The notes below the pieces were generated by a model, which was given only the letters and a program-made list of their open reading frames with translations, searched no databases and was not told where the DNA came from. A stretch of 33,520 bases of DNA from Marinoscillum sp. (GTDB lineage Bacteria > Bacteroidota > Bacteroidia > Cytophagales > Cyclobacteriaceae): NCBI GenBank assembly GCA_024305105.1, contig JAMWZA010000048.1:1-33520 (forward strand), in the 5' to 3' direction. Below, in pieces: positions 8,925 to 32,266 of the stretch. Position 1 is the stretch's first letter. Every line of letters starts with the position of its first letter. The position numbers and the translations under genes are program-made.

Positions 8925-9029
8925 CCTGATTGATAGACAACTTAACTGGGTAAAACCTTCGGTTAACGAGTAGTGAAGATTAGGACTTGTGAGTTGAAGT
9001 AAATTTGAATTGAATTTATATTGAGATAA

Positions 9030-10519: not shown

Positions 10520-10528
10520 CTTTAGTGC

Positions 10529-11227: not shown

Positions 11228-11276
11228 GGTAATAGAGGGATTAGTACCATCAACCAAATAGTATTAAAGATGATAC

Positions 11277-12809
11277 ATGGAGGCTAAAGACATTTCTTCC
11301 AAACTTACAGCGCAGCTTATAAGAGAAGCTACAGAGCGAAAGCATGCAGAAGCACTGATCAATCTATTCGTAAAAAATGCCCCTGGTGCATTGGCGGTTG
11401 TTGACTCATCATATAATTACCAGGCCATTAGCGATAAGTGGTACGAGTATTTTGACTTGGGCCTTGACGATCTTATTGGGCAGTCCGTGTTAGACTTTTC
11501 TTCTTCATTAAAAAGCCCGGCCTGGAACGATCGCTTTCTAAGAGCGCTGGCCGGTGAGCATCTGAGAGGTGAAGATGAAAAGATTCAGGTGATAAATGGT
11601 ACGGATTATTGGATTGATTGGGAGCTTGTACCCTGGACGAATAAAGATTCTCAGGTGGCCGGGTTGGTCATATCTGTGGAGGTCTTGAATGAGAAGAAAC
11701 AGTTAGCTGATCAATTGGAGCAAACCAGTGAGGCTTTGAAAATGGCTATCCAATCAAGTGGTTTTGGTTTTTGGCAATGGGTGGAAACAACCGATGAACT
11801 GATTTGGGACGATGGAATGTATGCATTATTCGAGGTAGATCGTGAGCAGTTTACAGGTAAGGGCAGTTTCTTTATGCAATGTTTAGTTAGTGATGATCGT
11901 CCTGCTCTTGAAGAGGTTTTGGCTGATACTTTAAGCAAACGGGGAGAGTACCACATCAAATACATGATTAACACCCAGGCCGGCGTTAAAATCATCAAAG
12001 AGCATGGTAAGGTGTTTGAGGCAAACAGTCAGGTCAGAATGACTGGTATCTGTGAGGATATCACGGAGGAAGAGCGATTAAAACAAGATTTAGCACAGCT
12101 TAATCAAAATCTGGAGCAGAAAATCCAAGATCGGACAGAACAGCTGGAGCGCTCATACGAAGAAACCAGATCACTCACATACTCTTTGTCTCATGACCTA
12201 CGGGCTCCTTTAAGGGCTATCTCAGCCTATACCGAAGCGATTGCGGAAGATAATATGGTTCCGTTTGCTAAAGAAATCGAAGGATACTTTGGAAGAATAA
12301 AATCGAATTCTAAAAAAGCAATAGAACTTATCGATGACTTGTTGGCCTACAGTAGGGTAATTCATCAAAAACTTCAATTCGAAGAGCTGGACTCACGAGT
12401 GTTTCTAAAAGAAGTGATAAATGAAATTGGCGAAGAGGCAACTACTCGTGTGGAGTTAGGAGAAGTTCCCCACTTTTATGGAGATGCCACTACCCTTAAG
12501 CAGGCCTTTCTAAACATTCTGGATAATGCCTTGAAATTTAGCAGTGAAGATGTGGTGATTTATGGAGAACATAAGTCTGGAAGTGTTTGTGTGCATGTAC
12601 AAGACCAGGGTATTGGTATTGCTACAGAGGATCAGGATAAAATATTCGAGGTGTTCAGAAAGCTAAATCCTGACGATGAATACGAAGGCTCCGGTATCGG
12701 TTTGTCTTTGAGTAAGCGTATATTGGAGATAAACAATGGACAGATCGTTCTGAAGTCTAATTCAGCGAAAGGGTCTACGTTTACCCTTGTACTTCCACAA
12801 CCTTCCTGA
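11277..12809 (+). CDS. PAS-PAS sensor histidine kinase, phytochrome-type
   Basis: A 510-residue cytoplasmic kinase. PAS 1 lies at about residues 22-140 (NAPGALAVVDSSYNYQAIS) and PAS 2 at 150-270 (GFGFWQWVETTDELIWDD), ending in GICEDITEEERLKQD. A coiled coil of about 35 residues (LNQNLEQKIQDRTEQLERSY) follows. The HisKA acceptor is His306 in YSLSHDLRAPLRAIS, and HATPase_c (385-508) has NILDNALKFS, DQGIGI and GSGIGLSLSK. There are no transmembrane segments and no receiver, so it must pass phosphate to a separate receiver such as one of the neighbouring stand-alone ones. It begins 49 bp after the LytTR gene and ends in a hairpin that may terminate the transcript. Confidence 0.92.
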   Translation: MEAKDISSKLTAQLIREATERKHAEALINLFVKNAPGALAVVDSSYNYQAISDKWYEYFDLGLDDLIGQSVLDFSSSLKSPAWNDRFLRALAGEHLRGEDEKIQVINGTDYWIDWELVPWTNKDSQVAGLVISVEVLNEKKQLADQLEQTSEALKMAIQSSGFGFWQWVETTDELIWDDGMYALFEVDREQFTGKGSFFMQCLVSDDRPALEEVLADTLSKRGEYHIKYMINTQAGVKIIKEHGKVFEANSQVRMTGICEDITEEERLKQDLAQLNQNLEQKIQDRTEQLERSYEETRSLTYSLSHDLRAPLRAISAYTEAIAEDNMVPFAKEIEGYFGRIKSNSKKAIELIDDLLAYSRVIHQKLQFEELDSRVFLKEVINEIGEEATTRVELGEVPHFYGDATTLKQAFLNILDNALKFSSEDVVIYGEHKSGSVCVHVQDQGIGIATEDQDKIFEVFRKLNPDDEYEGSGIGLSLSKRILEINNGQIVLKSNSAKGSTFTLVLPQPS

Positions 12810-12829
12810 CTGGTTCGGCCTAACCAGTC
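12808..12829 (+). terminator. Hairpin at end of kinase gene
   Basis: A perfect 8-bp stem, GACTGGTT and AACCAGTC, with a 6-base loop, starts inside the stop codon of the kinase gene. It lacks a strong T-run, so it may be a weak terminator or an mRNA 3'-end stabiliser. Confidence 0.45.
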
Positions 12830-13010
12830 TCTTACTCTGGATAAGCCTAAAGAGTACTGCTCTTAAAGAGCATGAGCCCTGGTTAACTCAATGTAAAATT
12901 AGATACAATTAACGAGCCTTTTAAGTAATGAGCGGATCATTGAAATCAACCAGACCAGTTTTCATCACCTTTTTTGTCTCATGGTTGTCGGTCTGATTGT
13001 AAGTGCTGAC

Positions 13011-13190
13011 ACGTTACTTTTGGGTGCCTCTTCGAGATCACTTGATGCTTTCCATACATTGGTAGGTTCCCAGATTAATCCACGGATGCGAATTGGTTAG
13101 GCTTATGATTTTACAGGGTCAGATTTAAATCAGGGTGCAAGAGGTTCTCATGAAATTATGATAAATTATAGACTGGTGATTGTTAGGTAA
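13011..13190 (+). pseudogene. C-terminal relic of a PorP/SprF-family membrane protein
   Basis: The plus-strand frame starting near 13011 reads TLLLGASSRSLDAFHTLVG, then SQINPRMRIG, a TAG stop at 13098-13100, and without any frame change AYDFTGSDLNQGARGSHEIM, INYRL and a stop at 13188-13190. PorP/SprF proteins end in a similar pattern: xGASYRxGDAxxALVGxQINPxxRIGYxYDFTxSDL, then a Gly-rich turn and SHEIMLxY. The TAG falls where that family usually has Tyr. Sequence upstream (12830-13010) has no matching N-terminal part. PorP/SprF proteins are outer-membrane components linked to type IX secretion and gliding in Bacteroidota. This copy is clearly dead. The family call rests on motif memory, not a search. 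Confidence 0.6.
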
Positions 13191-13235
13191 CGAACTGTGA
13201 CTCCCAGGAATTTCTAATGTCAAAAATGAATAGAA

Positions 13236-15590
13236 TTGAATAGTCGATTATTTAAGGGATATAGAATTAAGTCAGCAATAACCATGATTATTGCTGCCTT
13301 TGTCATGTTAGGGTGGTTCTTGGAAATACCTATCCTCACCAGGTTAAATGAAGCTTTCCCCTCTATGAAGTTTAATACTGCCCTCTCGTTTTTTCTGATG
13401 GGCTTAACCATGTGGTTTTATCAGCATAGGGTCAGATATCTATTAGTGATAATTGTTTGCATCTTGGGGATTTCATCAATGTTCCAAAGCATTTTAGGAG
13501 TCGATCTTTTCCTGGAGGAGCTTTTTGTAGAAGACTTCATTGAAAATAGCGGTTTGATGTCATCGGCTACCGCTATTTGTTTTTTGTTGATGTCGGTTGG
13601 TTGGATAATTCGTGACTCTGAGAATCGTAAGACCATTCAGGCAGCACACCTTTTATTCAATACTGTATCGATCATTTCTTTTTTATCACTAATTGGTTAT
13701 ACCTTCGGAATTGAAACAAGCGATAGACTGGAGTTTATGTCAAGCATGGCGCTGCATACGTCAGTGTTGTTTATCGTGATCTCTACGGGTTCGTTGTTAC
13801 CTTTTGTCAATGTTGGAATTTCCAAGATATTCATTGGTGCCAATTCGGGAAGTAAGCTGGCCAAGAAAATGTACTTGCTACTCATTTTGGCAGTGCTTTT
13901 TGTAGGATTTGGTGTAGTGCGGCTGGCAAGAGCTGGTCTTGTTTCATTAGAGGGGAGTATTACGCTCACGGGCGTTTTGATATTAGTAGTTTCATTAATA
14001 GGCGTGACACTTATCGCTTTTCAACTGTTTCGAGAAGAGGAGGTAAGAACCAGCTTGGAGCATAAATTGAAACGAATCAACACTGAATTAGAAACTCAAG
14101 TAGAAAAACGAACAAAAGAACTTAAGGAAACAGTCGATTTACTTAATCGAACCAACGATTCCGCGAAGATTGGTTATTGGACTTTGGATGTGAATACGCA
14201 CGAAGTGAGCTGGTCCGCAGTGACCAGAACGATACATGAAGTAGATAGCTCTTTTGTTCCAGATTACAGTACTGGCGTACAGTTTTATAAAAGTGAGAAA
14301 GATAAACAGGACATAACCAATGCCGTAACCAAAGCTGCCAATCAGGGAGTGTCATGGGATCTGGAGTTAGAAATCATCACAGCTCAAGGTAACGTAAAAT
14401 GGGTTCGCACCATTGGTTTTGCTGAACATGATTCAGCGGGAAATTGTGTAAAAATAGCAGGTACGTTTCAGGACATTCATGAACGGAAAATGGCCGAAAT
14501 TAAGCTATCAGAAGAGCGTCAATTCTTGCAGTTGGCGATTGATACTATCCCTGTCAATGTTTATGCCAAGGATTTGGAATCCAGAAAAACGTTAGTCAAT
14601 AAACAGGAATTAGAATTGCTTGGCGTAAGCAACGTGGAAGATGTTTTGGGTAAAAATGATTTTGACCTGTACCCGGAAGAATCGGCAAAAATATCCCGCG
14701 CAGAAGATCTTAAGGTTTTTGAAACGGGGGAATCTTATGAGTCTGAAGAAACATCTATACAATTCTCGGACGGGAGGCAAGAGTGGTTCATTACATCTAA
14801 AATTCCATTCAAGGATTTTCAAGGCGTTGTTAAAGGATTGATTGGCGTATCTGTAAACATTACTGAGCGGAAGAAGCTTGAATACAAATTACAAAATTAT
14901 GCCATTTTAGAGGCTAAGGCCAAAGAAATGGAACAGCTCGCTTATATAGCATCTCATGATTTGAAGGAGCCTTTACTCACAGTAAAGGCTTATATATCTG
15001 AACTTTTTGCGGATTTTGGTCATCAACTGGATGGTGAAGCCAGGTATTTTCAAAAGACGATTGAAAAAGGGATTGATCGAATGCAAACGCTGGTTGATGG
15101 GTTGTTGGATTATTCCAGAGCCAGCGCCAGAGAGGAATTGAAAGTAATCAATGTGAGAGAACTCTTAGGTGAAGTTTGCGAAAGCTTGAGCCAAACCATC
15201 GAAGCTTCCGGGGCAATTATCCAGAAGGATTTTGAATTGCCTGATATTAAGTGTTACCCGATAAAGCTCAGATCACTCTTTCAAAACCTGATTAGTAACG
15301 GGATAAAATATCAAGATGAGCAAACACCGAAAATTCAGGTTTCTGCTGAGCAGTTTGATGAATATTGGCAGTTTTGTATTGCTGATAATGGTATTGGGAT
15401 TGAATCGCAGTATTATGATCAAATATTTTCTATGTTTAAGAGACTCCATTCCAGACATGAGTATGAGGGCACTGGGATTGGCTTAGCACAGTGTCAAAAA
15501 ATTGTAGAGTTTCATAATGGCAAGATTTGGGTGGAATCCGTAAAAGGAAAAGGAAGCAATTTTTATTTCACTATAGCAAAAGACTTATGA
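13236..15590 (+). CDS. Membrane-bound PAS-PAS sensor histidine kinase
   Basis: A 784-residue kinase with about eight hydrophobic segments in the first 265 residues, including FPSMKFNTALSFFLMG, a segment seen in several uncharacterised membrane sensor modules. A coiled coil (LEHKLKRINTELETQVEKRT) leads into PAS 1 (about 308-425) and PAS 2 (about 430-548). HisKA has His574 in AYIASHDLKEPLLTV. HATPase_c (675-784) has NLISNGIKYQ, DNGIGI and GTGIGLAQC. No ATG fits the full membrane module: an in-frame TGA lies just upstream (13227-13229), leaving TTG 13236 as the start; ATG 13284 would trim the first helix. It overlaps the following receiver by 4 bp, which suggests that receiver is its partner. 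Confidence 0.88.
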   Translation: MNSRLFKGYRIKSAITMIIAAFVMLGWFLEIPILTRLNEAFPSMKFNTALSFFLMGLTMWFYQHRVRYLLVIIVCILGISSMFQSILGVDLFLEELFVEDFIENSGLMSSATAICFLLMSVGWIIRDSENRKTIQAAHLLFNTVSIISFLSLIGYTFGIETSDRLEFMSSMALHTSVLFIVISTGSLLPFVNVGISKIFIGANSGSKLAKKMYLLLILAVLFVGFGVVRLARAGLVSLEGSITLTGVLILVVSLIGVTLIAFQLFREEEVRTSLEHKLKRINTELETQVEKRTKELKETVDLLNRTNDSAKIGYWTLDVNTHEVSWSAVTRTIHEVDSSFVPDYSTGVQFYKSEKDKQDITNAVTKAANQGVSWDLELEIITAQGNVKWVRTIGFAEHDSAGNCVKIAGTFQDIHERKMAEIKLSEERQFLQLAIDTIPVNVYAKDLESRKTLVNKQELELLGVSNVEDVLGKNDFDLYPEESAKISRAEDLKVFETGESYESEETSIQFSDGRQEWFITSKIPFKDFQGVVKGLIGVSVNITERKKLEYKLQNYAILEAKAKEMEQLAYIASHDLKEPLLTVKAYISELFADFGHQLDGEARYFQKTIEKGIDRMQTLVDGLLDYSRASAREELKVINVRELLGEVCESLSQTIEASGAIIQKDFELPDIKCYPIKLRSLFQNLISNGIKYQDEQTPKIQVSAEQFDEYWQFCIADNGIGIESQYYDQIFSMFKRLHSRHEYEGTGIGLAQCQKIVEFHNGKIWVESVKGKGSNFYFTIAKDL

Positions 15591-15979
15591 AAAAGCTTGA
15601 CTGTATTTTACTCGTTGATGATGATGAGGATTGTAATTTTTTTCATCGGCGTTTGATCAAGAAAATGGGCTGTGCCGAACGAATAGAAGAAGCAAAAAAT
15701 GGGCTTGAAGCTCTGGAGTTAATCAAAAGTGAACGAGCCTGTCCAATAGATATGATTTTGCTGGATATCAATATGCCAGTAATGGATGGCTGGACATTCT
15801 TAGCGGAATATGAAAAATTACCTCTGGAGAAACGCGCGTGCATAGTTGTGGTGATGCTCACCTCATCTGTTAATTCTGATGATGTCAACCATGCGCACTC
15901 TCAGAGTGTGGTTTCAGCATTTGTCAATAAATACTTGGATGAGTCCAGACTGAGAAGTTTAATTGAGAGTAAGTTTTAA
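15587..15979 (+). CDS. Rcp1-type single-domain response regulator
   Basis: A 130-residue receiver. I start it at ATG 15587, which overlaps the kinase stop (ATGA) and gives the usual beginning MKKLDCILLVDDDED. The phospho-acceptor is Asp60 in MILLDINMPVMDG, the switch Thr is in VVMLTSS, and the conserved lysine is in FVNKYLDE. In that last motif the Pro normally following the Lys is replaced by Tyr. Receivers of this type sit next to phytochrome-like or PAS kinases in many Bacteroidota and cyanobacteria and act through protein contacts. Its partner is most likely the kinase it overlaps. Confidence 0.9.
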   Translation: MKKLDCILLVDDDEDCNFFHRRLIKKMGCAERIEEAKNGLEALELIKSERACPIDMILLDINMPVMDGWTFLAEYEKLPLEKRACIVVVMLTSSVNSDDVNHAHSQSVVSAFVNKYLDESRLRSLIESKF

Positions 15980-16289: not shown

Positions 16290-16304
16290 TGCAATACAGT
16301 TGCA
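16290..16304. promoter_or_regulatory. Fur/Zur-type operator 1
   Basis: TGCAA-TACAG-TTGCA is a perfect 5-5-5 palindrome, extended to 6-bp arms as ATGCAA and TTGCAT. It is the first of four sites with this pattern, all upstream of metal-related genes. It overlaps the proposed -33 element. Confidence 0.7.
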
Positions 16305-16330
16305 TAAATTAATGTTCATCAATATAATTG
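16299..16330 (+). promoter_or_regulatory. Candidate promoter of the metal operon
   Basis: GTTG at 16299-16302 and TATAATTG at 16323-16330 are 20 bp apart. This fits the Bacteroidota pattern TTTG-N19-21-TAnnTTTG with one mismatch in each element. Both elements are overlapped by a palindromic operator, as expected for a repressed promoter. The ATG of the MerC-like gene follows 18 bp later, so the leader would be very short. Confidence 0.45.
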
Positions 16331-16343
16331 CAACATAATTGCA
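16329..16343. promoter_or_regulatory. Fur/Zur-type operator 2
   Basis: TGCAA-CATAA-TTGCA is a perfect 5-5-5 palindrome, 5 bp before the start codon at 16349 and centred 39 bp from operator 1. It overlaps the end of the proposed -7 element. Confidence 0.72.
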
Positions 16344-16348
16344 TTTAT

Positions 16349-16717
16349 ATGATTTACATCAATCTTGATAAAGTAGGAGTTTGTACTTCCAGCGTCTGTG
16401 CGCTACACTGCATGCTCATGCCCTTTGTTTTGGTCAATGCCGGTTCATTGGGAGTTCTGGCCTTTTTGGGGAATCCAATCCTGGAATGGCTAGTTCTGGC
16501 GATGGTTCTGCTAGTCGGTATGGTGGCCATTTTACCCTCCTTCATGAAGCATAGAAAGGCCTACGTTCTGGTCTTATTCTTTTCTGGCTTATTGCTAATC
16601 ATCAATGCGGAGTTTGTTGAATTAATGGGAGCAAAAGTTTCCTTATCCGGTATTGGCGGGGCTTTGATGGCATATGCACACTATGAGAATTTGAAGCTCA
16701 GAACCTCGCGTTTATGA
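16349..16717 (+). CDS. MerC-domain membrane protein
   Basis: A 122-residue inner-membrane protein with about four hydrophobic helices. The N-terminal motif VCTSSVCALHC puts Cys12, Cys17, His20 and Cys21 at the start of the first helix, as in MerC-like proteins, which move or bind Hg(II) in mercury resistance. Without merA or merR nearby, a mercury role is unlikely; in Bacteroidota such genes are often found beside Fur-type regulators. ATG 16349 is preferred to an upstream in-frame TTG that lies inside operator 2. It is the first gene of a putative five-gene operon and overlaps the next gene by 4 bp. Metal transport or sensing is inferred, and zinc is the most likely metal. Confidence 0.8.
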   Translation: MIYINLDKVGVCTSSVCALHCMLMPFVLVNAGSLGVLAFLGNPILEWLVLAMVLLVGMVAILPSFMKHRKAYVLVLFFSGLLLIINAEFVELMGAKVSLSGIGGALMAYAHYENLKLRTSRL

Positions 16718-17145
16718 AGTTGCTCTTGTTGGCTACTTTTTTAACCACGCAACTGGAAGGTTGGGAACTTTTGAATGATGTCAGGTTCAAAAGCGAATTT
16801 AGTGAGGAGCTGGACGTATACGTTGATATTCCCTCATTTGGTGAGAAGCTGCAGGCCCTGGATGGAAAACGGGTCAAAATCAAAGGACATTACATTCCCG
16901 CAGAACTAAATGATCCGAATGGAATCATTCTATCCAAATTCCCCTATGCTGCTTGTTTTTTCTGTGGCGGGGCTGGACTGGAGTCTGTTGTGGAGGTTCA
17001 TTTTTCTGCACCTTCCCGGCATTTTAAGCCCGATGAAGTAATCACCGTGGAAGGGACTTTAAAGCTCAACAGGGATGATTTTGAGCACCTTGTATTTATT
17101 CTCAATGATGCAAAGCGAATGGTATGGGAAGATCGGGAGCAATAG
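16714..17145 (+). CDS. Small secreted CxxC protein, DUF3299-like
   Basis: A 143-residue protein with a short signal-like start (MKLLLLATFLTTQLEG). The body (LDGKRVKIKGHYIPAE ... VVEVHFSAP ... ITVEGTLKLN) looks like an OB-fold-type beta barrel. FPYAACFFCGGAG carries Cys81 and Cys84, a likely metal or disulfide site. The pattern is reminiscent of DUF3299 proteins, which also pair a KIxGY strand with a Cys-containing loop, but I am not certain of the family. Its ATG overlaps the MerC-like stop (ATGA), and the next gene starts 22 bp before its end. A periplasmic metal-binding role is inferred from the operon and operators. Confidence 0.72.
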   Translation: MKLLLLATFLTTQLEGWELLNDVRFKSEFSEELDVYVDIPSFGEKLQALDGKRVKIKGHYIPAELNDPNGIILSKFPYAACFFCGGAGLESVVEVHFSAPSRHFKPDEVITVEGTLKLNRDDFEHLVFILNDAKRMVWEDREQ

Positions 17146-17594
17146 TTCTAATAACGTGTTTTTTGTGGAACTGCATGGGCAAAAGCGATCAGAAGTTGGA
17201 GGAAGCGATGCAAATACATGTCATGTCAGTAAAAATAAGCCAGCACATTGATGAGAAGATTACAAAGCTGGAGCACTATGCGATGATGCAAAGTAAGGAG
17301 TTGCAAATCAGTTTGATGGACTCTGTAAAAGCACTAAACGCAGATCTTTTTTACTGGAGAAGCAATTTGATAGAGGTGCCCGGCATGGAGCACGAGCATC
17401 AACATGGGCATACGCATGGCTATCAACCTTTAGCTCATTTAACCCCTGAAATGGTATTGGATATTCAGAAAGACCTAAGAAATCAGATCATTCAACTGAA
17501 TATTCGAACTCAAAAATTACTCGATACACTGGATAATAAGAATGAAAATGAACTTATTGAAAAAAAAGAAAAAGCTTCCCGTTACGGTGCTTAG
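17124..17594 (+). CDS. His-rich lipoprotein of the metal operon
   Basis: A 156-residue lipoprotein. The signal sequence ends in LWNC with Cys17 as the lipidation site. The rest is two long amphipathic helices ([39 protein letters not shown]) joined by a loop with the metal-binding cluster [10 protein letters not shown] at about residues 90-99. I do not recognise a named family. The cluster is the type of motif that binds Zn(II) in periplasmic zinc chaperones. The gene overlaps its upstream neighbour by 22 bp and the following GTPase by 53 bp. It plausibly buffers or passes zinc in the periplasm, which is an inference from motif and context. Confidence 0.75.
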
Positions 17595-18771
17595 TGGTTT
17601 TTTAGGAGCTGGTAAAACCACATTACTCAATCATGTACTCAACAATCGTGAAGGTCTGAAAGTAGCTGTGATTGTCAACGATATGAGTGAGGTAAACATA
17701 GATGAAAAGCTTATTGCCAGCGGCAGTGAGCTTTCTCGTACGGATGAGAAATTGGTGGAAATGAGTAATGGCTGCATCTGTTGTACGCTCAGAGAGGATC
17801 TGATGATCGAGGTAGAGAAGCTGGCCAAAATGAACAAGTTCGATTATCTGCTCATCGAAAGTACCGGGATCTCTGAGCCGATTCCTGTAGCGCAAACGTT
17901 CTCCTATGCTACAGGTGATGAATTGTATGACTTGACTAAATTCAGTCAACTGGATACGATGGTTACAGTGGTCGATGCCTATAATTTCTTCAAGGATTTT
18001 GGGAGTGCTGACACCATCCTGGATCGAGAGATGACTGATGATGAGCAAGATGAGCGCTCTATTGTGAACCTGCTAACAGATCAGGTGGAGTTTGCCAATA
18101 TCATTATTCTGAATAAGACTGATCTGGTAGAGGCATCACAACTAGGCCTATTGGAAAAAACGCTGCATAAGTTAAACCCTGGCGCCAAAGTCATTCGCTC
18201 AAGCTTTGGCAAGATAGACCCTAAAGAGATTCTGAATACCAGGCTGTTTAACTATGATGAAGCGGAGCAATCAACCGGCTGGCAGAAGGAACTGGAACTG
18301 TCCCAAAAAGGGATTGCTCATAGCCCGGAAACCGAAGAGTATGGTATAGGCTCTTTTGTTTTTAGAGATCCCAGACCGTTCCACCCAGAGCGATTTATGA
18401 ATTATGTCGCTGAGCACTTTTCCTCCACTGTTATTCGCAGCAAAGGAATTTTTTGGTTGGCTTCCAGGCCTGACAAAGCGGTGCTTTGGAGCCAGGCGGG
18501 AGGTTCACTACGAGCCGAGCTGTATGGTCGATGGTGGGCAAGTGTACCTTTTAAGGAGCGAGCCTTGAACCCCGTTTATTTAGAAAATCAATCCCTCATA
18601 CAAGAAAAGTGGAATAAAAAATGGGGAGACCGGATGAATGAACTGGTTTTTATTGGTCAGGAAATGGACCAAAAAAAGATGATTGCAGATTTGGAGTCTT
18701 GCTTGTTGACAGACTTAGAAATAGTAGGTATGGAATCGGGGAATGAGTTTGAAGATCGTTGGCCGATATGA
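17542..18771 (+). CDS. COG0523 G3E-family GTPase (CobW/ZigA/YciC-like)
   Basis: A 409-residue cytoplasmic GTPase and putative metal chaperone. Walker A is GFLGAGKTT (residues 19-27), the family metal site is GCICCTL (77-83, Cys78, Cys80, Cys81), the switch region has [11 protein letters not shown], and NKTD gives guanine specificity. The C-terminal CobW_C region contains [10 protein letters not shown] and [11 protein letters not shown]. Members under Zur control (YciC/ZagA, ZigA) help deliver zinc to enzymes during starvation. ATG 17542 or 17548 are the only starts before the core fold, so the 53-bp overlap with the lipoprotein gene appears real. The next gene overlaps by 4 bp. The family call is certain; zinc specificity is inferred. 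Confidence 0.94.
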
Positions 18772-19679
18772 GTAGTATTATAACAAATTTTGAAGTAATC
18801 ATTGTTGGAGGTAGCTATGCCGGACTTTCAGCAGCTATGGCACTAGGAAGATCTCGTAGAAAGACCCTTATTATAGATGCAGGGGATCCTTGCAATAAGC
18901 AAACACCCCATTCACATAATTTTTTAACACAGGATGGTGTTCCACCTGCTCAGATTGCCTCTTTAGCAAAAGAGCAGGTCTTGGCTTATTCAACAGTGAG
19001 TTGGCAAAATGATGCTGTTGGCAAACTCAAAAAGACTGATAACTCGGTTGAGGTAAGTACAGAGAGTGGTGCTTCCTTTAGTGGCAATAAACTAATTATT
19101 GCAACAGGCCTTACAGACGTACTTCCTACTATTCCCGGTTTCAAGGAGTGTTGGGGCAATTCCATCATTCACTGTCCATACTGCCATGGCTATGAGTATA
19201 GAGATCAGAAAACGGGAATTCTTGCATCTGGAGAACAGGCCATGGAGATGGTGAAGCTCATCGATCACTGGACTAAGGATTTGACTCTTTTTCTAAATGG
19301 TAAGAATGACTTACTTCCTGAGCATCATGAATTGATTCTTGATAAGGGTGTACGCATAATTGATGGGACGATTCAGGAAGTTATTCAGGAGCAAGGAAAA
19401 CTTCAGTATCTGGTGATGGCTGATGGTTCTCAGGAATACTTAGATGCACTTTACGCAAGAGTACTTACTCAGCAGAGAATTCGCTCCATTGCCGAACTTG
19501 GTTGTTCGTTAACAGAAATGGGACTTTTGGAGGTCGATATGTTTGGTAAGACCAAGGTTAAAGGTGTTTATGCTGTTGGAGATTGTGCTCACCCTATGAG
19601 ATCTGTTGCCACAGCGGTTTATTCAGGCAATATAGCTGGAGCAATGATCAATAAGGAACTCATTGATGAAGATTTCTGA
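18768..19679 (+). CDS. GliT/thioredoxin-reductase-like FAD oxidoreductase
   Basis: A 303-residue flavoprotein. The FAD-binding motif is [19 protein letters not shown] at the N-terminus, and [12 protein letters not shown] at about residues 268-279 is the second FAD motif. The redox pair is in HCPYCHGYE at about 136-144. This CxxC-HGYE form is found in the GliT/HlmI group of dithiol oxidases and in low-molecular-weight relatives of thioredoxin reductase, not in classical TrxB (CATC). The NADP-binding part looks reduced: there is no clear GxGxxA motif after the CxxC. I chose ATG 18768, which overlaps the GTPase stop (ATGA), over TTG 18759. It closes the metal operon; its substrate is unknown. 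Confidence 0.85.
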
Positions 19680-19725
19680 GTTGAAATAAAACGATATTTC
19701 GCTTAATTCTGTTGATAATGTAATC

Positions 19726-19740
19726 TGCAATGAATTTGCA
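19726..19740. promoter_or_regulatory. Fur/Zur-type operator 3
   Basis: TGCAA-TGAAT-TTGCA is a perfect 5-5-5 palindrome, 19 bp before the start of the Fur-family gene. A further half-site, TTTGCAA, lies at 19752-19758 next to the start codon. The position suggests that the regulator represses its own operon. Confidence 0.72.
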
Positions 19741-19759
19741 TTTACATTACATTTGCAAT

Positions 19760-20182
19760 ATGAAGTACAGTGAGCTAAAGCAAAGTCTGAAAAACCACAA
19801 ATTACGCATCACCGATTGTCGAATGGATGTACTGGAGTATTTCCAGCAGCAGAAGAAGGCGCTTTCATTCAGGGACTTGGAGTATAAGTTTCAGGAATAT
19901 GATCGGGTAACGCTTTACCGAACCTTGCATTCATTTGAAGAAAATGGATTGCTTCATAAAATACCCGGGGATAGTGGATCTGCGGTTTATGGACTCTGTA
20001 ATGATTGTGGAGTGGAAGCGCATCACCACAATCACATGCACTTTAAATGCGATACCTGTGGTACCACAGAGTGTATTGATGTTCCAGTAGAAATCCCCAC
20101 CATATCTCTCCCGAAAAACTACAAAATGACAGACATGGATGTTATTGTCAATGGTATTTGTAATCACTGCAATTCCAACTGA
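19760..20182 (+). CDS. Fur-family metalloregulator (probably Zur)
   Basis: A 140-residue repressor. The winged-helix part contains LRITDCRMDVLEYF and the recognition region DRVTLYRTLHSFEENGLLHK. The metal part has the His cluster HHHNHMHF (88-95) and two Cys pairs, C97-x2-C100 and C134-x2-C137, the structural zinc site of Fur proteins. I chose ATG 19760 (MKYSELKQSL) because the upstream in-frame ATG 19730 lies within operator 3 and would add an odd decapeptide. It precedes the TonB receptor by 5 bp, so the two are co-transcribed. Fur, Zur and PerR cannot be separated by sequence alone; the COG0523 GTPase and His-rich neighbours favour Zur. Confidence 0.92.
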   Translation: MKYSELKQSLKNHKLRITDCRMDVLEYFQQQKKALSFRDLEYKFQEYDRVTLYRTLHSFEENGLLHKIPGDSGSAVYGLCNDCGVEAHHHNHMHFKCDTCGTTECIDVPVEIPTISLPKNYKMTDMDVIVNGICNHCNSN

Positions 20183-20187
20183 TCTAT

Positions 20188-22554
20188 ATGCGGCAATTTT
20201 ATTTAGGGGTAATAATGATGGTCGCTTCAGCATCATTGGCCCAAACCAGTCTGAGGGGAAATGTTACAGATCCTGCTGGTGAGCCTTTGATTGGGGCCAC
20301 AGTACTCATTCATGAGTTGGATAAAGGGATGGTAACCGACCTGGATGGTCAGTTTAGATTCGACAACCTGAGGGTCGCCGACTATCATTTACACATCAGC
20401 TATATTGGCTATGAAGCCAAGACCATTGCTATACATCCGAGAGACGGGGATGGTGTCACGATCGTATTGGAGCCAACTTCACTGGAGCTTAGTGAGATAG
20501 TGGTGGAGTCCAACCATTACAAAACAGGTCCCAGGGAGCATACGCTGGCGATGGAGATCATAGACATGGAGTACCTAAAGAAAAACAGGAAGGGCACTTT
20601 GGTTAATTCGCTGGAAGACTTACCGGGAGTTAATGCGATCAACACTGGTGTGGGTATTTCGAAGCCTGTAATTCGGGGCATGAGTTTCAATCGCGTGATT
20701 GTAAATGATAAAGGAGTAAAGCAAGAAGGCCAGCAATGGGGTACCGATCATGGGTTGGAGATAGACATGTTTGAGCCTGGCCGAGTGGAAGTGGTCAAAG
20801 GTCCAAGTTCGCTGATGTACGGCTCGGATGGACTTGGAGGAGTTCTGAATATTTTTCCGCCATCGCTACCAGATCCCGGCACGCATCAGGGTGCTGTTCA
20901 GAGTATATATAAGACCAACAACCAGTCTGTCAGCACGTCTACATCTTTGGAGGGAAATTTCGATGATAAAGTCTACCGGCTAAGGTTCAGCACCCAAGAT
21001 TTTGGAGACTATCGCGTGCCAGCTACTAGTTTCAATTATAATAATTTTAACCTTCCCCTGTATGACAATCAGCTAAAGAATACCGCAGGAAATGAGCGAA
21101 ATCTCACGGCTATGGTAGGCTTGAAAAAGAATTGGGGATACTCAACGCTCACAGTAAGTAATTTCCATCAGACGGCTGGTTTTTTTGTAGGAGCAATAGG
21201 CATACCCAGATCTTATCAGCTCACACCAGATGGTGATAGTCGAAACACTGATTTGCCAAAACAAGTCATCAATCATTTTAAAGTGATATCCAATAGTAAT
21301 ATCCTTATTGGGAAGAATTGGTTGGAGTTGGACATGGGCTATCAGAATAACTATCGTCAGGAACAGTCAAACCCACACGCACATGGCAAGGGCCCAAGGC
21401 CGGATGGCACTCAGGCACATGCTTTACGCCTTCAAACTTACAGCCTAAATGCGCGTTATTTCATTCGATTATCTGATAGACACTCCAGGATACTCGGGGT
21501 GCAGGGCCAGCAGCAGAGTAATTCACGTGGTGGCTTTGAATTTCTTTTGCCAGAGTTTTCAAGTGCCTCAGTAGGGGCGTTTGTTTTTGAAGAATTTAGT
21601 TTTAAAAAGCAAGTTACAGCCACGGCAGGCGTGAGGTTTGATTATGCCAACAGAAGTATCGACTCCTATTCAGAACCAATATATAGTGATGAAACGACTA
21701 TAGAACGCTACTATCAACGTAATGGAGCTATCAATTCGGATTTTTACAATGTTTCCGGAGCGCTAGGTTTGAGCTATTATCCAAGTCGTTCATTTAATGC
21801 TAAATGGAATTTAGGCACCAGCTTTAAAGTCCCAACCGCAGCAGAGCTTTCTATGAATGGAATCCACCATGGTACCTTTCGACATGAAGTCGGAGACAGC
21901 ACATTGACTTCCGAGAGAGGATTGCAAGCAGACTTGAGCCTGAGTTATCAAAAGAGTAATATTAGCCTGGTGGTAAGCCCTTTTATCTCCTGGTTTAATG
22001 ATTTTATCTATTTGGCTCCGACTGCAATGTTTTCATCCAGTATGGATTCAGATGCCTTTCCGGAGGGTGGGCAAGTATTTCAATATAAGCAGAACGATGC
22101 ATTTTTCGCTGGAGGTGAGGTGGCAGCAGAGTATCACCCGATCGAGGAATTACATATTCGGGTAGCATATGAGTATGTGTATAATTACAACCTGGATACG
22201 AAGTTGCCCTTACCATTCACTCCGCCAGCCTCCATTTTTACTGAGTTGCAATATGAGCTTGAATCATCCATGACCTGGCTCGATGGAGTCAATTTCGGAG
22301 TGAACTTCAAGAAGGTTTTTGACCAAAAAAGGGTAGATAGAAATGAGCGGACCACTCCAGGGTATTATTTGATTGGTTTCAATATGGGTACTCAGTTTGT
22401 TTTCAATGGATTCAAACCCGAATTGGTTTTTTCAGCACTTAATCTTACTGACACACGATATTTCAATCATTTGAGTAGGTATCGCCTACTTAATCTACCA
22501 GAGCAAGGTAGAAACTTCATGATTTCATTGAATATACCTTTTGCAATTAAGTAG
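20188..22554 (+). CDS. TonB-dependent outer-membrane receptor, metal uptake
   Basis: A 788-residue outer-membrane protein. A signal peptide (MRQFYLGVIMMVASASLA) is followed by a carboxypeptidase-regulatory-like domain (about 22-100, LRGNVTDPAGEPLIGATVLI), a plug (about 115-230, GINAxNTGVGISKPVIRGMS-type sequence and MYGSDGLGGVLNIF) and a beta barrel ending in FAIK. A loop with NPHAHGKGPRPDGTQAHA is His-rich. It forms an operon with the Fur-family regulator. Its length is that of siderophore/metal receptors, not of SusC proteins. With operator 3 upstream it is most simply a zinc receptor of ZnuD type. Substrate is inferred. Confidence 0.9.
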   Translation: MRQFYLGVIMMVASASLAQTSLRGNVTDPAGEPLIGATVLIHELDKGMVTDLDGQFRFDNLRVADYHLHISYIGYEAKTIAIHPRDGDGVTIVLEPTSLELSEIVVESNHYKTGPREHTLAMEIIDMEYLKKNRKGTLVNSLEDLPGVNAINTGVGISKPVIRGMSFNRVIVNDKGVKQEGQQWGTDHGLEIDMFEPGRVEVVKGPSSLMYGSDGLGGVLNIFPPSLPDPGTHQGAVQSIYKTNNQSVSTSTSLEGNFDDKVYRLRFSTQDFGDYRVPATSFNYNNFNLPLYDNQLKNTAGNERNLTAMVGLKKNWGYSTLTVSNFHQTAGFFVGAIGIPRSYQLTPDGDSRNTDLPKQVINHFKVISNSNILIGKNWLELDMGYQNNYRQEQSNPHAHGKGPRPDGTQAHALRLQTYSLNARYFIRLSDRHSRILGVQGQQQSNSRGGFEFLLPEFSSASVGAFVFEEFSFKKQVTATAGVRFDYANRSIDSYSEPIYSDETTIERYYQRNGAINSDFYNVSGALGLSYYPSRSFNAKWNLGTSFKVPTAAELSMNGIHHGTFRHEVGDSTLTSERGLQADLSLSYQKSNISLVVSPFISWFNDFIYLAPTAMFSSSMDSDAFPEGGQVFQYKQNDAFFAGGEVAAEYHPIEELHIRVAYEYVYNYNLDTKLPLPFTPPASIFTELQYELESSMTWLDGVNFGVNFKKVFDQKRVDRNERTTPGYYLIGFNMGTQFVFNGFKPELVFSALNLTDTRYFNHLSRYRLLNLPEQGRNFMISLNIPFAIK

Positions 22555-22571
22555 TGTATAGTTTATACTTG
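22540..22571 (+). promoter_or_regulatory. Candidate promoter of the His/Asp-rich lipoprotein gene
   Basis: TTTG at 22540-22543 and TATACTTG at 22564-22571 are 20 bp apart. This matches the Bacteroidota consensus TTTG-N19-21-TAnnTTTG with one mismatch. The -33 element lies within the last codons of the receptor gene. Operator 4 begins at the end of the -7 element. Confidence 0.5.
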
Positions 22572-22584
22572 CAATATAATTGCA
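22570..22584. promoter_or_regulatory. Fur/Zur-type operator 4
   Basis: TGCAA-TATAA-TTGCA is a perfect 5-5-5 palindrome, 19 bp before the lipoprotein start codon. It gives the lipoprotein gene its own regulated promoter even though it directly follows the receptor gene. Confidence 0.72.
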
Positions 22585-22603: not shown

Positions 22604-23446
22604 ATGAAAAGATTAATACTAGGCCTGGGACTACTTTCAATGTTTTTTCTAATGGCTTGTGAAGACGATGAGGTCGTGGATGTAACAGCTCCAACCATCG
22701 AAATGGAAGAGCCAGAATATGGAGAATCTTTCGTTGCTGGCGGAGACATTCATTTTGATGCACTCTTTGAAGATGATGTGGAGCTGGCTACCTTCAATTT
22801 GACTATTCATGACAACTTTGATGGTCATAATCATGGTAGAGTAGCTGTGACAGCTTTTGATTTTGATCAAAGCTACGAATTGACCGGAAAATCGGACGAT
22901 GTTCATGAGGATATTGAAATTCCAGCAAATGCCACAGCTGGGCCTTACCATCTCATTGTGGAGGCGATTGATGCAGCAGGTAACTCTACTACGTTCGCAG
23001 ATGGTTCATCCAAGGAGATTGAAATCTGGATTACTAACGACGAGATGCCACATGTGCATTTTGAAGATGCCAACGAAACGGGAGTAGATGAATACGAAGG
23101 TGAAGTAGGTGTGGCATTGATGTTTTATGGAGAGGTAGAAGATGAGGTAGGAGCACTAGACCATGTAATGATTATGGTTGGTCATCTGGAAGAAGGCGCA
23201 GAGCATGATGATCACGATCACGGTGGCCGAACATTACAGGATGATGATCATATTTTTGAGAAGGAAATAGAGGTAGAAGGAGAGACTTCTGTTTTGCTTC
23301 AGGATTTACTAGAAGGTGAATCAATCGTGGTGGCTCAAAGTGATCTCGATGAGTTAGAAGAAGGTGAGCACCTTTATCTAATAGTACAGGCAGAAGATGA
23401 AGATGGCAACATCTCCCGTCACGCCATAGAAATACACTTTGACTAA
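22604..23446 (+). CDS. His/Asp-rich lipoprotein (DUF4625-like), metal binding inferred
   Basis: A 280-residue, very acidic lipoprotein with lipobox LMAC (Cys19). Two Ig-like modules follow: APTIEMEEPEYGESFVAGGD ... DAAGNSTTF (about 28-135) and a second ending in IVQAEDEDGNISRHAIEIHF. The first resembles DUF4625. Metal-ligand-rich stretches are HDNFDGHNHGR and EHDDHDHGG. It has its own operator and promoter and is followed by an intrinsic terminator, so it is probably a single-gene unit of the same regulon. Surface or periplasmic capture of zinc for the adjacent TonB receptor is the likely role. That role is inferred. Confidence 0.8.
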   Translation: MKRLILGLGLLSMFFLMACEDDEVVDVTAPTIEMEEPEYGESFVAGGDIHFDALFEDDVELATFNLTIHDNFDGHNHGRVAVTAFDFDQSYELTGKSDDVHEDIEIPANATAGPYHLIVEAIDAAGNSTTFADGSSKEIEIWITNDEMPHVHFEDANETGVDEYEGEVGVALMFYGEVEDEVGALDHVMIMVGHLEEGAEHDDHDHGGRTLQDDDHIFEKEIEVEGETSVLLQDLLEGESIVVAQSDLDELEEGEHLYLIVQAEDEDGNISRHAIEIHFD

Positions 23447-23651: not shown

Positions 23652-26600
23652 TCAACCCACCTGTGATGGATTTTTACCAAAATATTTCTTAAAACTGGTA
23701 GCAAAGTAATTAGGGTCTGAAAACCCGGTTTTATAAGAGGCTTCACTGACGGTGAGATTGTGATCAGCCAGCAGTTTGTAAGCAGTGTTAAGTCTGTAAG
23801 TCCTCAGAAAGGCCATTGGAGTGATTCCGGTCAGTCCTTTCACCTTTCTGATCAGGCTTGATTTACTGCAGTTCATGGTATCCGCCAGTGTTTCTATAGA
23901 CAGCTCAGGGTTAGTGATATTGGCCTTGATGTAGTCCTTTAATTTGTTCATAAATTCCAGATCATGCTTGCTAAGGCTGTCTTCGGGCTCACTTATTTTT
24001 TGCAGTCCCTGAAATTTCTCCCTGAGTTTTTGTCTGTTTTCCAGTACAGATACTACTGAGGCTTGCAAAAATTCTGTCTTGAAAGGCTTTGTGATATAGC
24101 TATCAGCTCCATAGCTCATTCCTTTTATTTGTTTGTCTAAAGAGCTATTGGCAGTTAATAGTATGACTGGGATATGTGAGGTGTCAATACTGGATTTAAT
24201 TCTCTTGCAAAATTCATAGCCGTCCATTTTAGGCATCATCACATCACTGATGATCAGATCCGGGGTCTTTTTCTGTGCCAGGTTCAACCCTTCTTCTCCG
24301 TCAAAGCAGTGAATGATCTTGTAATCTTGTTCAAATAATTGGACAAGGAACAGGTTCAGCTCGGGGTTGTCTTCACAGATCAGCAAGGTAGGGATATTGT
24401 ACCTCGTGGTTGTAGGGGATTGGATGGGTTCACGACTGGTAAGCGTTGGAGTCAAATACCTGTAATTGCCTTTAGGTTTAGAATTGAATTCTTCTTTGCT
24501 AAAGGACTCCTTTATGAAAGGTACACTGACGTGAAATGTGGAGCCAACTTCTGGTTGCGAGGTTACTTCTATGAATCCTCTGTGGCTATTCACCAGCCCT
24601 TTGACAATGGCCATGCCGAGACCAGTTCCAAACTCCTTGTTTTCCACTTCATGTCCTGTCTGATAGTACCTGTCAAAAAGTAAGTTCACTTCATGAGATG
24701 TCATCCCTTTCCCAGTGTCACGGATTATAAAGTTCAGAAGTGAATCATTGTGAATACTGCAGCCAATATGAATCTTGCCTCCCTTTTGGGTGAATTTCAA
24801 CGCATTCGAAAGGATGTTCCATAAAATTCGTTTTACTTTTTCAGTATCTATGTATACAGGCCGGTCACATTGATTATCAAGTGATAAGACAATCCCCTGA
24901 TGTACACATGCACTGTTGAAGGGCTCATAGAGGTCTTCTAAAAATCGCTCAATATCGGTTTCCGATATTTCCAGGCTGAGCGTATCTGGATTGTTGATTT
25001 TTCGAAAATCCAGCAGATCAATAATGAGATGGTGCAGTCTGTCGGAGTTTCGCTTAATCAACCCAAGATTGGATTGACCTCTTTCACCTATAGTACTATC
25101 CTGCAGCAAGTCTTCCAGGGGTGCAGAGATCAGTGTAAGTGGCGTTTTGAAATCATGGGTGATATTGGTAAAAAACTGGAGTTTTTTCTCATTGAGATCT
25201 CTGGTAGTTTGGAGCTTGTATTCCGAAAATTCCAACTCCTTTAGCATGTGCGTACGGTAAAGCATTAATCTATAGATCAGGTATCCTGATACCATGCCTC
25301 CGCACAGGTAAATGAGGTATGCCCACCAGGACATGTACCAGGGCGGTGCTATGATGATGCTTAGCTTAGTGGCCTGATCATTTTGTGTGCCGTACTTATT
25401 AGATGAGCTCACCTGAAACTGATATTTGCCGGGGGAAAGGTTGGTATAGGTGGTTTGGGTGTTTTCATCCAGATCGATCCAGTTTTCCTCAAGCCCCAGC
25501 ATTCTGTATTTGAATTTATTGAATTTAGGCAGGGAGTAATCATTATTGAAGAAATGAACTGTGAAAGAATTCCGGTAAAATGGAAGCTCAAGCCTGGAGC
25601 TGGTTTCAACCGGTTCTGTCAGTAGTTCTTCTTCCAGGGTTTTAATGCTTTGATTTTGGAAAGTGATGTCTGAAATGATCGTTTTAGGAGGCGGCGAACC
25701 TTGCGGGTTTGTGTTGGTATTTGCAAGAACAAAGCCCCTCACGGTACCAAAGAGTAAGTGACCATTGTGCAATACTGAGGAGGTGAAAGGAGTAAACTCT
25801 CTGGAAGGAAGCCCGTGCCTGTGATCATAAGGAGTTATTTGTCCCTGAGTATTGATTTTGGAAAGACCTGAAATGCTACTTACCCAGAGGTTACCTAAGT
25901 GGTCTTTTTCCACTCTTAAGAGAAAATTGGAGGAAAGTCCTATTTCCATGTCTAACCGCTCCAGCGTTTCTCCCTTAGGGGAGGTGAGAATCAAGCCCTC
26001 ACCTCTCGTAGCCAGCCAGAAAGTACCATCTTCGTTTTGACAGAAATCATTGATGGGTAAAGGCGGTGTGAGTACTGGTTCGAGGGTTGCCTCCACGGTG
26101 TTTATGCGGTAAAGGGCTTTGCCAAAGACGTAGACATATAGATTGTCATTGAATTTTCTGACTGCTTGTGATTGAAACTTGATCACTTTGCTGTCATTCT
26201 CTACCAATGATATAGGGTTGGCCTTGGCCGTACTTGGATCGAATATGACCATTCCCTTATACATGGAGTTGACCAACACCTTGCCACCAGGCAGATTGAA
26301 TAGAAAACTGATATTTTGTTCCTGTCCTTCATTACCAAACGGATAGTAGGTATCAATATGCTGCAAGTCTGGTGTGAAATGGCCTAACCCGCCATCGTAA
26401 GTTCCCACCAGTACATTGTGGTTGTTGGTTTCCAGGATGGATAAGACCTTGGTGCCACCCAGAAGCTGTTTACACTTTTCAAAACCCAGTTCGGTGCTTA
26501 CGCCAGTGGATCGGTCTATTCTGACAAACCCACCGGGAGAACCCAGAAGCAAGTTGTGATCATGGTCTTCGTATGAGGCAGTAGCACTTTCATGGAGGTT

Positions 26601-27578
26601 CACCACACTTGTCTTATGAAGGTCCTGTAGTTTTTGAAACTGAAGTTGATTTGAAGATAAAACGCTGACTCCTGCGTCGTAGGTGCCTATCCAAATGCTC
26701 GTAGCATCCATGGCCAGGATACTTTGTATGTTGTTGCTACCTATCAGGTTTTCGGCACCCTGCTTATGGGTGATATGAGCCACTACCTGCTCCATTTGAT
26801 CAAGCACGAACACACCATTGCCGTCAGTACCAGCCCACAGTTGGTCTTTGTGCAGTGCTATATCCTTGATAGGATGACTGTTTCTGAGCGGTACTTGTAT
26901 TAAACTATCCTTTTCAAGGTAGTATATCTGGCCATCTGATGTGCCTACCCATACCTGATCATCGATAGCTCTAAGGCATGTTATCACTTTGGTAGTTAGC
27001 AGTTGTCTTTTAACAGATAGCTGCCCGTTGTGAACCTCCCCTTGAATCAATCCGCTGTTCTTTCCCTGGCCCAGGTATATGTGGTTATCCTGATAGACTA
27101 TCTGTCGGAGGTAAGATTCTCCACCCAGTTCAATACCTGAGACTTCATCGTTTTTCAGAGTGTACATCTTCTGTGGAGTGATGAAGTAAATCCTGTCTTG
27201 AGATGAGGATAAGTGTCTGATATCTCCCAATGATATCTTCTGAAAGCGGTCGTGTATTCTGTCAAGCAGAAACATGCCCTGATGTGTACCTACCCAAACG
27301 TCATTTTGACCAGACAGGAAAATGGAAGTTATCTCAATCCCGTTGAGGGCAGAGTAGGTTTTGAACCTGTAGCCGTTGTACTGTGCTATCCCATTTTGGG
27401 TACCGATCCAGATATAGCCGGTAGAATCCTTCACAATGCTTTTGATTTTGTTCTGGGGTAGCCCATCTCTGTCTGTGATATTAACCGAGTGATAATTGGC
27501 CTGAGAAAATACGGTTATTTGCCACAAAAGAGAGAGGAAAAAGAAGCCAATTCGGTACATAGCTCTATTAAAAATCAT
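23652..27578 (-). CDS. SusR-like hybrid two-component system regulator (HTCS)
   Basis: About 1308 residues, combining sensor, kinase and transcription factor in one protein. Order: signal peptide (MYRIGFFFLSLLWQITVFS), a periplasmic beta-propeller of Reg_prop-type repeats (GYIWIGTQNGIAQYNGYRF, DVWVGTHQGMF, SIWIGTYDAGVSVL), a Y_Y_Y domain (about 660-740), one membrane helix (about 749-772), HisKA with His808 in NITHDFKTPLTLIS, HATPase_c (NILSNALKFT, GTGLGMAIV), a receiver with Asp1112 in ISDVMMPKMDG, and an AraC-type HTH (about 1215-1308, FSDPNYFATSFKKYFGKNPS). Starts at ATG 27578 or 27560 are both possible; a TTG lies at 27587. It is divergent from susC and most likely activates that locus on binding an oligosaccharide. 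Confidence 0.95.
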   Translation of the reverse strand: MIFNRAMYRIGFFFLSLLWQITVFSQANYHSVNITDRDGLPQNKIKSIVKDSTGYIWIGTQNGIAQYNGYRFKTYSALNGIEITSIFLSGQNDVWVGTHQGMFLLDRIHDRFQKISLGDIRHLSSSQDRIYFITPQKMYTLKNDEVSGIELGGESYLRQIVYQDNHIYLGQGKNSGLIQGEVHNGQLSVKRQLLTTKVITCLRAIDDQVWVGTSDGQIYYLEKDSLIQVPLRNSHPIKDIALHKDQLWAGTDGNGVFVLDQMEQVVAHITHKQGAENLIGSNNIQSILAMDATSIWIGTYDAGVSVLSSNQLQFQKLQDLHKTSVVNLHESATASYEDHDHNLLLGSPGGFVRIDRSTGVSTELGFEKCKQLLGGTKVLSILETNNHNVLVGTYDGGLGHFTPDLQHIDTYYPFGNEGQEQNISFLFNLPGGKVLVNSMYKGMVIFDPSTAKANPISLVENDSKVIKFQSQAVRKFNDNLYVYVFGKALYRINTVEATLEPVLTPPLPINDFCQNEDGTFWLATRGEGLILTSPKGETLERLDMEIGLSSNFLLRVEKDHLGNLWVSSISGLSKINTQGQITPYDHRHGLPSREFTPFTSSVLHNGHLLFGTVRGFVLANTNTNPQGSPPPKTIISDITFQNQSIKTLEEELLTEPVETSSRLELPFYRNSFTVHFFNNDYSLPKFNKFKYRMLGLEENWIDLDENTQTTYTNLSPGKYQFQVSSSNKYGTQNDQATKLSIIIAPPWYMSWWAYLIYLCGGMVSGYLIYRLMLYRTHMLKELEFSEYKLQTTRDLNEKKLQFFTNITHDFKTPLTLISAPLEDLLQDSTIGERGQSNLGLIKRNSDRLHHLIIDLLDFRKINNPDTLSLEISETDIERFLEDLYEPFNSACVHQGIVLSLDNQCDRPVYIDTEKVKRILWNILSNALKFTQKGGKIHIGCSIHNDSLLNFIIRDTGKGMTSHEVNLLFDRYYQTGHEVENKEFGTGLGMAIVKGLVNSHRGFIEVTSQPEVGSTFHVSVPFIKESFSKEEFNSKPKGNYRYLTPTLTSREPIQSPTTTRYNIPTLLICEDNPELNLFLVQLFEQDYKIIHCFDGEEGLNLAQKKTPDLIISDVMMPKMDGYEFCKRIKSSIDTSHIPVILLTANSSLDKQIKGMSYGADSYITKPFKTEFLQASVVSVLENRQKLREKFQGLQKISEPEDSLSKHDLEFMNKLKDYIKANITNPELSIETLADTMNCSKSSLIRKVKGLTGITPMAFLRTYRLNTAYKLLADHNLTVSEASYKTGFSDPNYFATSFKKYFGKNPSQVG

Positions 27579-27777
27579 ACCGATCAATATAGGCTAAATT
27601 GCCTGAATAATCAGGTGATTGGTTATTTGAAGTGGTTTTGATATATCAGATTGCAATTATTTCCAAGATATTTGCTCCTTTTTTAAAGACGGATCAGACA
27701 ACTCCTTATTTGCTTTGTGAATGATGAATTTATTGGTGTGCTACATGCCTTTTTAAATCAACCTAAAAGTGAGAATT

Positions 27778-30783: not shown

Positions 30784-30795
30784 CAGAGCAAGACG

Positions 30796-32256: not shown

Positions 32257-32266
32257 TACCCAAAAA

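Follow-up and report, generated by a model that had tools for sequence, protein, structure and literature searches.

The stretch analysed here (the window; 33,520 nucleotides of Marinoscillum sp., assembly GCA_024305105.1, contig JAMWZA010000048.1, positions 1 to 33,520 of the forward strand) carries a gene cluster with predicted metal-related functions, a Fur-family regulator gene (fur) within it, and four palindromes TGCAA-N5-TTGCA, named sites 1 to 4 by window position. The cluster comprises unit 1 (merC-p2-p3-zigA-like-trxR-like, genes overlapping), unit 2 (fur and a TonB receptor gene, 5 bp between them) and unit 3 (a DUF4625 gene). Genes named by profile are homologs of the named families, and their roles are predicted from sequence. 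Bacteroidota promoters have a -7 element TAnnTTTG and a -33 element TTTG or TTG; registers below give the distance of a -7 element from the end of a site. The features are as follows.

16290..16304, + strand, predicted operator site 1: TGCAATACAGTTGCA; exact match; +18 to one-mismatch -7 element
16323..16330, + strand, -7-like element: TATAATTG; one position off TAnnTTTG; between sites 1 and 2, with overlap
16329..16343, + strand, predicted operator site 2: TGCAACATAATTGCA; exact match; 39 bp after site 1; register -21
16349..16717, + strand, MerC-family membrane protein, first gene of unit 1: PF03203, 71.8 bits (cut-off 27.6)
16714..17145, + strand, p2, small protein: no Pfam or NCBIfam match
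17124..17594, + strand, p3, small His-rich protein: no Pfam or NCBIfam match; lipoprotein-like N-terminus by eye
17542..18771, + strand, ZigA-like COG0523 GTPase, zinc metallochaperone type: PF02492, PF07683; NF038288, 545.6 bits
18768..19679, + strand, TrxR-like FAD/NAD(P) oxidoreductase: PF07992, 91.2 bits; start read from sequence
19726..19740, + strand, predicted operator site 3: TGCAATGAATTTGCA; arms exact, without R; exact -7 element at +7
19748..19755, + strand, -7 element of fur: TACATTTG; exact TAnnTTTG
19760..20182, + strand, Fur-family regulator, Zur-type by its residues: PF01475, 50.2 bits (cut-off 23.1)
20188..22554, + strand, TonB-dependent receptor, weakly ZnuD/heme-receptor-like: PF00593, PF07715
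22564..22571, + strand, -7-like element: TATACTTG; one mismatch; overlaps site 4
22570..22584, + strand, predicted operator site 4: TGCAATATAATTGCA; exact match; register -21
22604..23446, + strand, DUF4625 protein with His-rich stretches: PF15418, 104 bits (cut-off 27)

A sequence-only reading of this DNA had proposed four perfect-armed palindromes, each within about 60 bp before a start codon and together covering all three units of a metal cluster, fur included. These claims were correct. All four palindromes were found at those positions with perfect arms, versus 0.09 exact matches expected in the window, and none of 100 dinucleotide shuffles of the window reached four. The distance from the end of the site to the ATG is 44 bp (site 1) and 5 bp (site 2) for the MerC-family gene (16349), 19 bp for fur (19760; site 3) and 19 bp for the DUF4625 gene (22604; site 4); each unit is preceded by a site. 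Site 3 overlaps the start, at 19730, of a longer alternative open reading frame (ORF). The same reading had noticed no other close match: there was no fifth exact match in the window, but one further place, 1577-1591, has a single mismatch. At up to two mismatches, 25 window places versus 24.6 expected were at chance level. The exact arms of the proposed motif were retained, but its free N5 spacer was too loose and was replaced by Y-N3-R. The refined motif, TGCAAY-N3-RTTGCA, was derived from genus sites and then tested on family sets; it is matched by sites 1, 2 and 4.

The window's genome (G000; 5.76 Mb, 296 contigs) was scanned for exact TGCAA-N5-TTGCA sites, as had been suggested. Four of the six sites found are in the window cluster. 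Of the other two, one (C270:7630) follows a second Fur-family gene at a distance of 5 bp and precedes a heavy-metal efflux operon with genes for a DUF6660 small protein, CzcA and CzcB, and one (C262:943) is 34 bp inside a gene. The proposed regulon is not only local.

Six genomes of the genus contained 50 palindromes, 48 distinct by their flanks, and all were classified. The ORF caller was simple (longest ORFs first), so that start codons and the upstream/inside splits given here and below are approximate. Of 29 distinct refined sites, 28 were within 300 bp before a gene and one was inside a gene. Grouping by hand from protein starts placed 22 of the 28 before fur, merC, DUF4625, lipoprotein, TrxR-like, TonB-receptor, ZigA-like or ABC ATPase genes; of the other six, two preceded a gene for a 176-residue protein, and one each preceded a gene for an 81-residue protein, a pyrF-like gene, an unnamed gene and, at 291 bp, the gene of an export-side regulator (see below). 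The 19 distinct unrefined sites were divided into nine inside genes (one, in L060, classed so only through an over-long ORF call), nine before genes, including site 3 and four efflux sites, and one that was neither.

All 41 family genomes analysed contained the refined pattern, with 187 occurrences in total; a control with the same arms and swapped inner bases occurred 64 times, in 30 of 41. A single genome (G007) contributed 24 of the 187 sites, leaving 163 without it. Of 69 sampled refined sites, 50 were upstream of genes, 14 inside and 5 neither, versus 6, 13 and 1 of 20 control sites (Fisher p = 0.001). The 138 distinct genes just 3' of refined sites belonged largely to a few families: 21 Fur (a count inflated because many loci were fetched by the regulator), 20 MerC, 17 TonB-receptor, 15 lipoprotein-like, 6 ABC ATPase, 4 DUF4625, 4 TrxR-like and 3 COG0523. 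The sets used for downstream genes and promoters contain many loci found by the regulator and some closely related species, and a site between divergent genes may count twice.

Eighty loci were also retrieved with the regulator protein sequence (the best 80 of 566 confirmed; this applies to all counts over these loci). Where the regulator was at least 50% identical, an N5 palindrome was present within 250 bp 5' of it in 20 of 27 loci. The refined form was present in 16 of these 27 and in 10 of the 53 loci below 50%, and two control patterns were each found near the regulator in 0 of 80. Among the sites listed in a search of the phylum, counted by hand, 15 of 75 refined versus 0 of 75 control sites were within 1 kb of a regulator homolog (Fisher p = 3e-5). 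In two more distant kinds of genome, the regulator is divergent from merC-TrxR-like-TonB receptor genes (L293, L294) or merC-ZigA-like genes (L295), with the site between them.

The positions of the sites relative to promoters were analysed by scanning 185 site-gene pairs for -7 elements, with site 3 included and export loci left out. Exact elements were found at -21 in 23 pairs, at +7 in 21, at +18 in 10 and at +17 in 6, and 69 of the 185 pairs had one at -21, +5 to +7 or +17 to +19. In a set of 191 pairs, which includes nine export-type or mixed loci (L284-L292), 73 exact elements were located 0-40 bp 3' of the site versus 6.1 in shuffled downstream bases. In 14 of the 21 pairs of the +7 group, a TTG formed with the left arm precedes the -7 element by 20 nt; in the +18 group, the right-arm TTG is at this distance because the register forces it. 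The 20-nt gap was the commonest among 48 background promoters, yet rare (6). All three units of the window use clustered registers: site 3 has an exact element at +7, and sites 1, 2 and 4 have one-mismatch elements at +18, -21 and -21, respectively, although other one-mismatch -7 words also occur near the window sites. Close site pairs in the fetched loci were 36-41 bp apart in 11 of 14 cases. The palindromes thus overlap promoter elements as a repressor needs, and are predicted to act in repression. At fur (window 19748-19760), only 4 bp separate the end of the exact -7 element from the ATG, and the transcript may therefore be nearly leaderless.

The regulator was aligned with homologs of both Fur clades considered here. 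H66 and C80 were invariant in 43 of 43 sequences, as were C97, C100, C134 and C137, the two CxxC pairs of a structural zinc site. H66 faces H77 of E. coli Zur, the hinge His of the sensing site; C80 faces its C88 and also a Cys of M. tuberculosis Zur, which has Asp at the hinge-His position. Alignments of Fur and PerR showed no Cys at the C80 position. H77 and C88 are ligands of the sensing zinc in E. coli Zur; a C88S change abolishes function, and C88 is described as the most conserved B-site residue among Zurs (PMC4219657). In a comparison of the 43-row profile with PDB, E. coli Zur gave the best match (1.9e-13).

The window's genome has three Fur-family genes, on C290, C240 (the window regulator) and C270. 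The fetched loci contained 131 distinct homologs, of which 110 were nearer the window regulator (uptake-type) and 21 were nearer the C270 paralog (export-type). Among the uptake-type genes, 41 had a palindrome within 300 bp 5' and one had it near the stop codon; none had czcA or czcB and one had a P-type ATPase gene within 9 kb. Among the 21 export-type genes, 20 had czcA, czcB or a P-type ATPase gene within 9 kb, two had a 5' site, and in 14 a palindrome fell between -30 and +60 bp relative to the gene's own stop codon. This last share is inflated by selection, since the proximity of a refined site to a regulator homolog was the reason for fetching L284-L292 and L293-L296. Eleven export-clade loci obtained via protein hits (L060, L062-L071; L060 was also known from its palindrome) had a 3' site in 8 cases and exporter neighbours in 10, whereas four loci fetched without a listed site (L300-L303) had exporter neighbours in 4 of 4 and a 3' site in none. 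In a 90-row tree, built from few columns with a long-branch outgroup and a bootstrap that had not settled, the export clade (support 100/96) comprised 12 rows, and an exporter neighbour or 3' site gave 11 of these their label. Two more labelled rows (L050, L098) were in the uptake clade; the 3' site of L098 precedes a TonB receptor gene. The C270 CzcA passed the NCBIfam cut-off for CusA/CzcA. Three P-type ATPases passed the NCBIfam cut-offs for cadmium-family heavy-metal ATPases, and the ZntA cut-offs were not reached by these three. These findings link the palindrome of the uptake side to a sister Fur clade as well, whose genes adjoin those of Czc/ZntA-type exporters and often have it around their own stop codon.

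The promoter register on the export side was different. All 14 stop-codon palindromes had a -7 element 12 or 13 bp 3' (11 exact, 3 with one mismatch); 7 of the 14 cases are from the window's genus or near-identical (L060, L063-L068), and the register was not a selection criterion. This spacing is half a helical turn off the uptake registers and places the -33 position in the middle of the palindrome. The recognition-helix stretches of the two clades in the window's genome are DRVTLYRTL and DKATLYRTL. The L060 locus (G000:C270, 1549-19788) is a heavy-metal island with czcBA, the DUF6660 protein, the Fur paralog, a pyridine nucleotide-disulphide oxidoreductase and a MerT/HMA protein, and, by eye, ArsR-type-regulator-like and P-type-ATPase-like genes.

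We conclude, with a probability of about 0.83, that the Fur-family protein encoded at 19760-20182 has the four palindromes as its operators, and that this protein is a Bacteroidota Zur-type zinc sensor repressing the three units. The sites, their recurrence before the same kinds of genes, the promoter registers and the Zur-type residues are observed; from these we infer binding by the regulator, zinc as its metal, and repression. Within the promoter, a zinc-bound dimer of the regulator would bind the 7-1-7 inverted repeat TGCAAY-N3-RTTGCA. It would thereby cover the -33 or -7 element and switch off the merC-p2-p3-zigA-like-trxR-like, fur-TonB receptor and DUF4625 units. When zinc is scarce, the regulator would release the DNA, and the derepressed products would be an outer-membrane receptor, His-rich proteins, a MerC-family membrane carrier, a ZigA-like chaperone and more regulator. 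The proposal of a candidate operator for a Bacteroidota Zur-like repressor is supported at the level of sequence, by the recurrence of the refined motif before the same gene kinds in relatives and by the Zur-type Cys and His.

Several results weigh against this conclusion. Site 3 does not fit the refined motif (T instead of R); both of its arms are exact at the corresponding position in 5 of 7 compared genomes, but G001 and G002, which are the closest relatives, have imperfect arms there. None of the six sites in the window's own genome was at an ABC-3 (ZnuB-type), ZIP or ribosomal-protein gene (ribosomal paralogs were not searched separately), and the znuABC-like and alternative ribosomal genes that the sequence-only reading had named as possible hits were therefore not among them. 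The profile score by itself is undecisive: Fur was a close second (1.2e-12) to Zur with the 43-row profile and ranked first with a 13-row profile. With the NCBIfam Zur model NF008646, the regulator had 36.8 bits and missed the cut-off of 167, and a Fur model scored it about as high. Below 50% identity, a nearby 5' N5 site was present in only 10 of 53 loci. In 148 genomes of the phylum, the refined pattern was present in 90 versus 105 for the control; the pattern as such is thus not enriched in the phylum. We therefore rejected the idea that the motif is more widespread than the control at this level; only its position near regulator homologs is special.

Of the other explanations, that both Fur paralogs cross-bind shared uptake and export targets, leaving no private Zur regulon, appears somewhat unlikely. 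The czc site of the window's genome has identical arms and the recognition helices are alike between the clades, but site position, neighbours and promoter register set the two clades apart. It is improbable that the regulator is a Nur-like nickel sensor, the palindrome a Nur box and the genes nickel-uptake genes. In Streptomyces coelicolor, the Nur box consensus tTGCaa-N5-ttGCAA agrees with the palindrome in arms and spacing (PMC3919588); Nur, however, is a nickel regulator of superoxide dismutase and nickel transport, whereas the genes here are ZigA-like and TonB-receptor genes and the regulator has a Zur-type metal site, with C80 and H66. No superoxide dismutase or nickel-linked gene kind stood out 3' of the sites, where nickel genes were not searched as such and most genes were not annotated singly.

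The sites might also serve another regulator, or an activator of scarcity genes, with the Fur-family gene a passenger. Relatives carry sites far from a fur gene, and many homologs below 50% identity are without a nearby site, as noted above. On the other hand, the proximity of refined but not control sites to regulator homologs, together with the match of the 7-1-7 palindrome to a Zur box form (PMC6103462), makes a passenger role very improbable. TGCAA-N5-TTGCA is also found inside unrelated genes, as would be the case for chance palindromes; that explanation was rejected as having a negligible probability in view of the window and genome counts, the family control, the upstream placement, the regulator proximity and the promoter registers.

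Zur-type repression by the window regulator can be extended to a tentative and rather doubtful model for Bacteroidota, in which two sister Fur proteins divide zinc control between them, share one palindrome, and act with a sign set by the spacing. Uptake sites coincide with promoter elements (+7, +17/18, -21) and would repress. The export site, 12-13 bp before the -7 element, would replace the -33 element and activate Czc/ZntA-type exporters at high zinc; MerC-family proteins of the regulon would be inner-membrane zinc importers. Activation is our inference, and export genes may instead be controlled by repression that zinc lifts. A replacement of the ABC-3 importer by MerC was also considered and rejected: no clear pattern was seen (ABC-3 in 22 of 41 genomes, MerC in 20 of 41, both in G000).

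The predicted system resembles the Zur regulons of E. coli, Bacillus, Streptomyces and others, which have a Fur-family protein with two CxxC pairs and a sensing Cys, and palindromic operators at zinc-acquisition genes. Known Zur targets include COG0523 and TonB-receptor genes (PMC6103462, PMC2770081). The operator sequence is unlike the E. coli Zur box, GAAATGTTATA-N-TATAACATTTC (PMC4219657). Also unlike known Zur regulons are the absence of a znuABC-type or ribosomal target at the six own-genome sites, within the search described above, and the recurrence of MerC, DUF4625, TrxR-like and small lipoprotein genes. As in the Zur-activated exporters (zitB of Streptomyces and a cation diffusion facilitator exporter of Xanthomonas), a Fur-family site precedes an exporter gene, and the Zur box of zitB is upstream of the -35 site (PMC6103462). 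In those cases one Zur serves both sides, whereas here there is a separate sister clade, a stop-codon palindrome and a spacing of 12-13 bp to the -7 element. We found no Bacteroidota Zur operator in searches of the open-access literature (subscription papers and regulon databases were outside the scope), and the main text of a 2009 COG0523 survey and a 2018 Zur review does not contain 'Bacteroid'. A defined operator would allow candidate zinc-starvation genes to be listed across a large phylum, and would provide a lead to the function of the DUF4625, MerC-like, TrxR-like and small lipoprotein families. The operator also offers a clean setting for asking whether promoter spacing alone can turn a Fur-family repressor into an activator.

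Some annotations in the cluster were below model thresholds. The ZigA-like protein did not reach the equivalog cut-off of NF038288 (600), and its homologs in L295 and L231 scored 557.2 and 562 bits. The TonB receptor had 126.6 bits with the ZnuD model NF038289, below the cut-off of 950. A p2 homolog in L101 had a sub-threshold DUF3299 match (E 0.0074). The 176-residue protein 3' of refined sites is encoded at L230:14005-14535 and L176:8255-8785, with a similar one in L250; the L230 protein had no Pfam match. An unrefined palindrome at L307:5032 (G003:C51) is 21 bp before a gene whose start resembles that of a peptide deformylase, a metalloenzyme; this may be chance. The Chitinophagaceae-type loci L135, L154, L160, L171, L287 and L296 have a SCO1/SenC-like gene, assigned by Pfam for the L135 protein alone, which is located between the site and the regulator gene and is divergent from merC. 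A second, much diverged Fur-family gene (25% identity; long tree branch) adjoins the Zur-like gene in L048 (822-1792). By eye, the window cluster is flanked by sensor-kinase and response-regulator-like genes (3931-15979) on one side and by genes for a hybrid two-component protein and SusC/SusD-like proteins (23652-33493) on the other.

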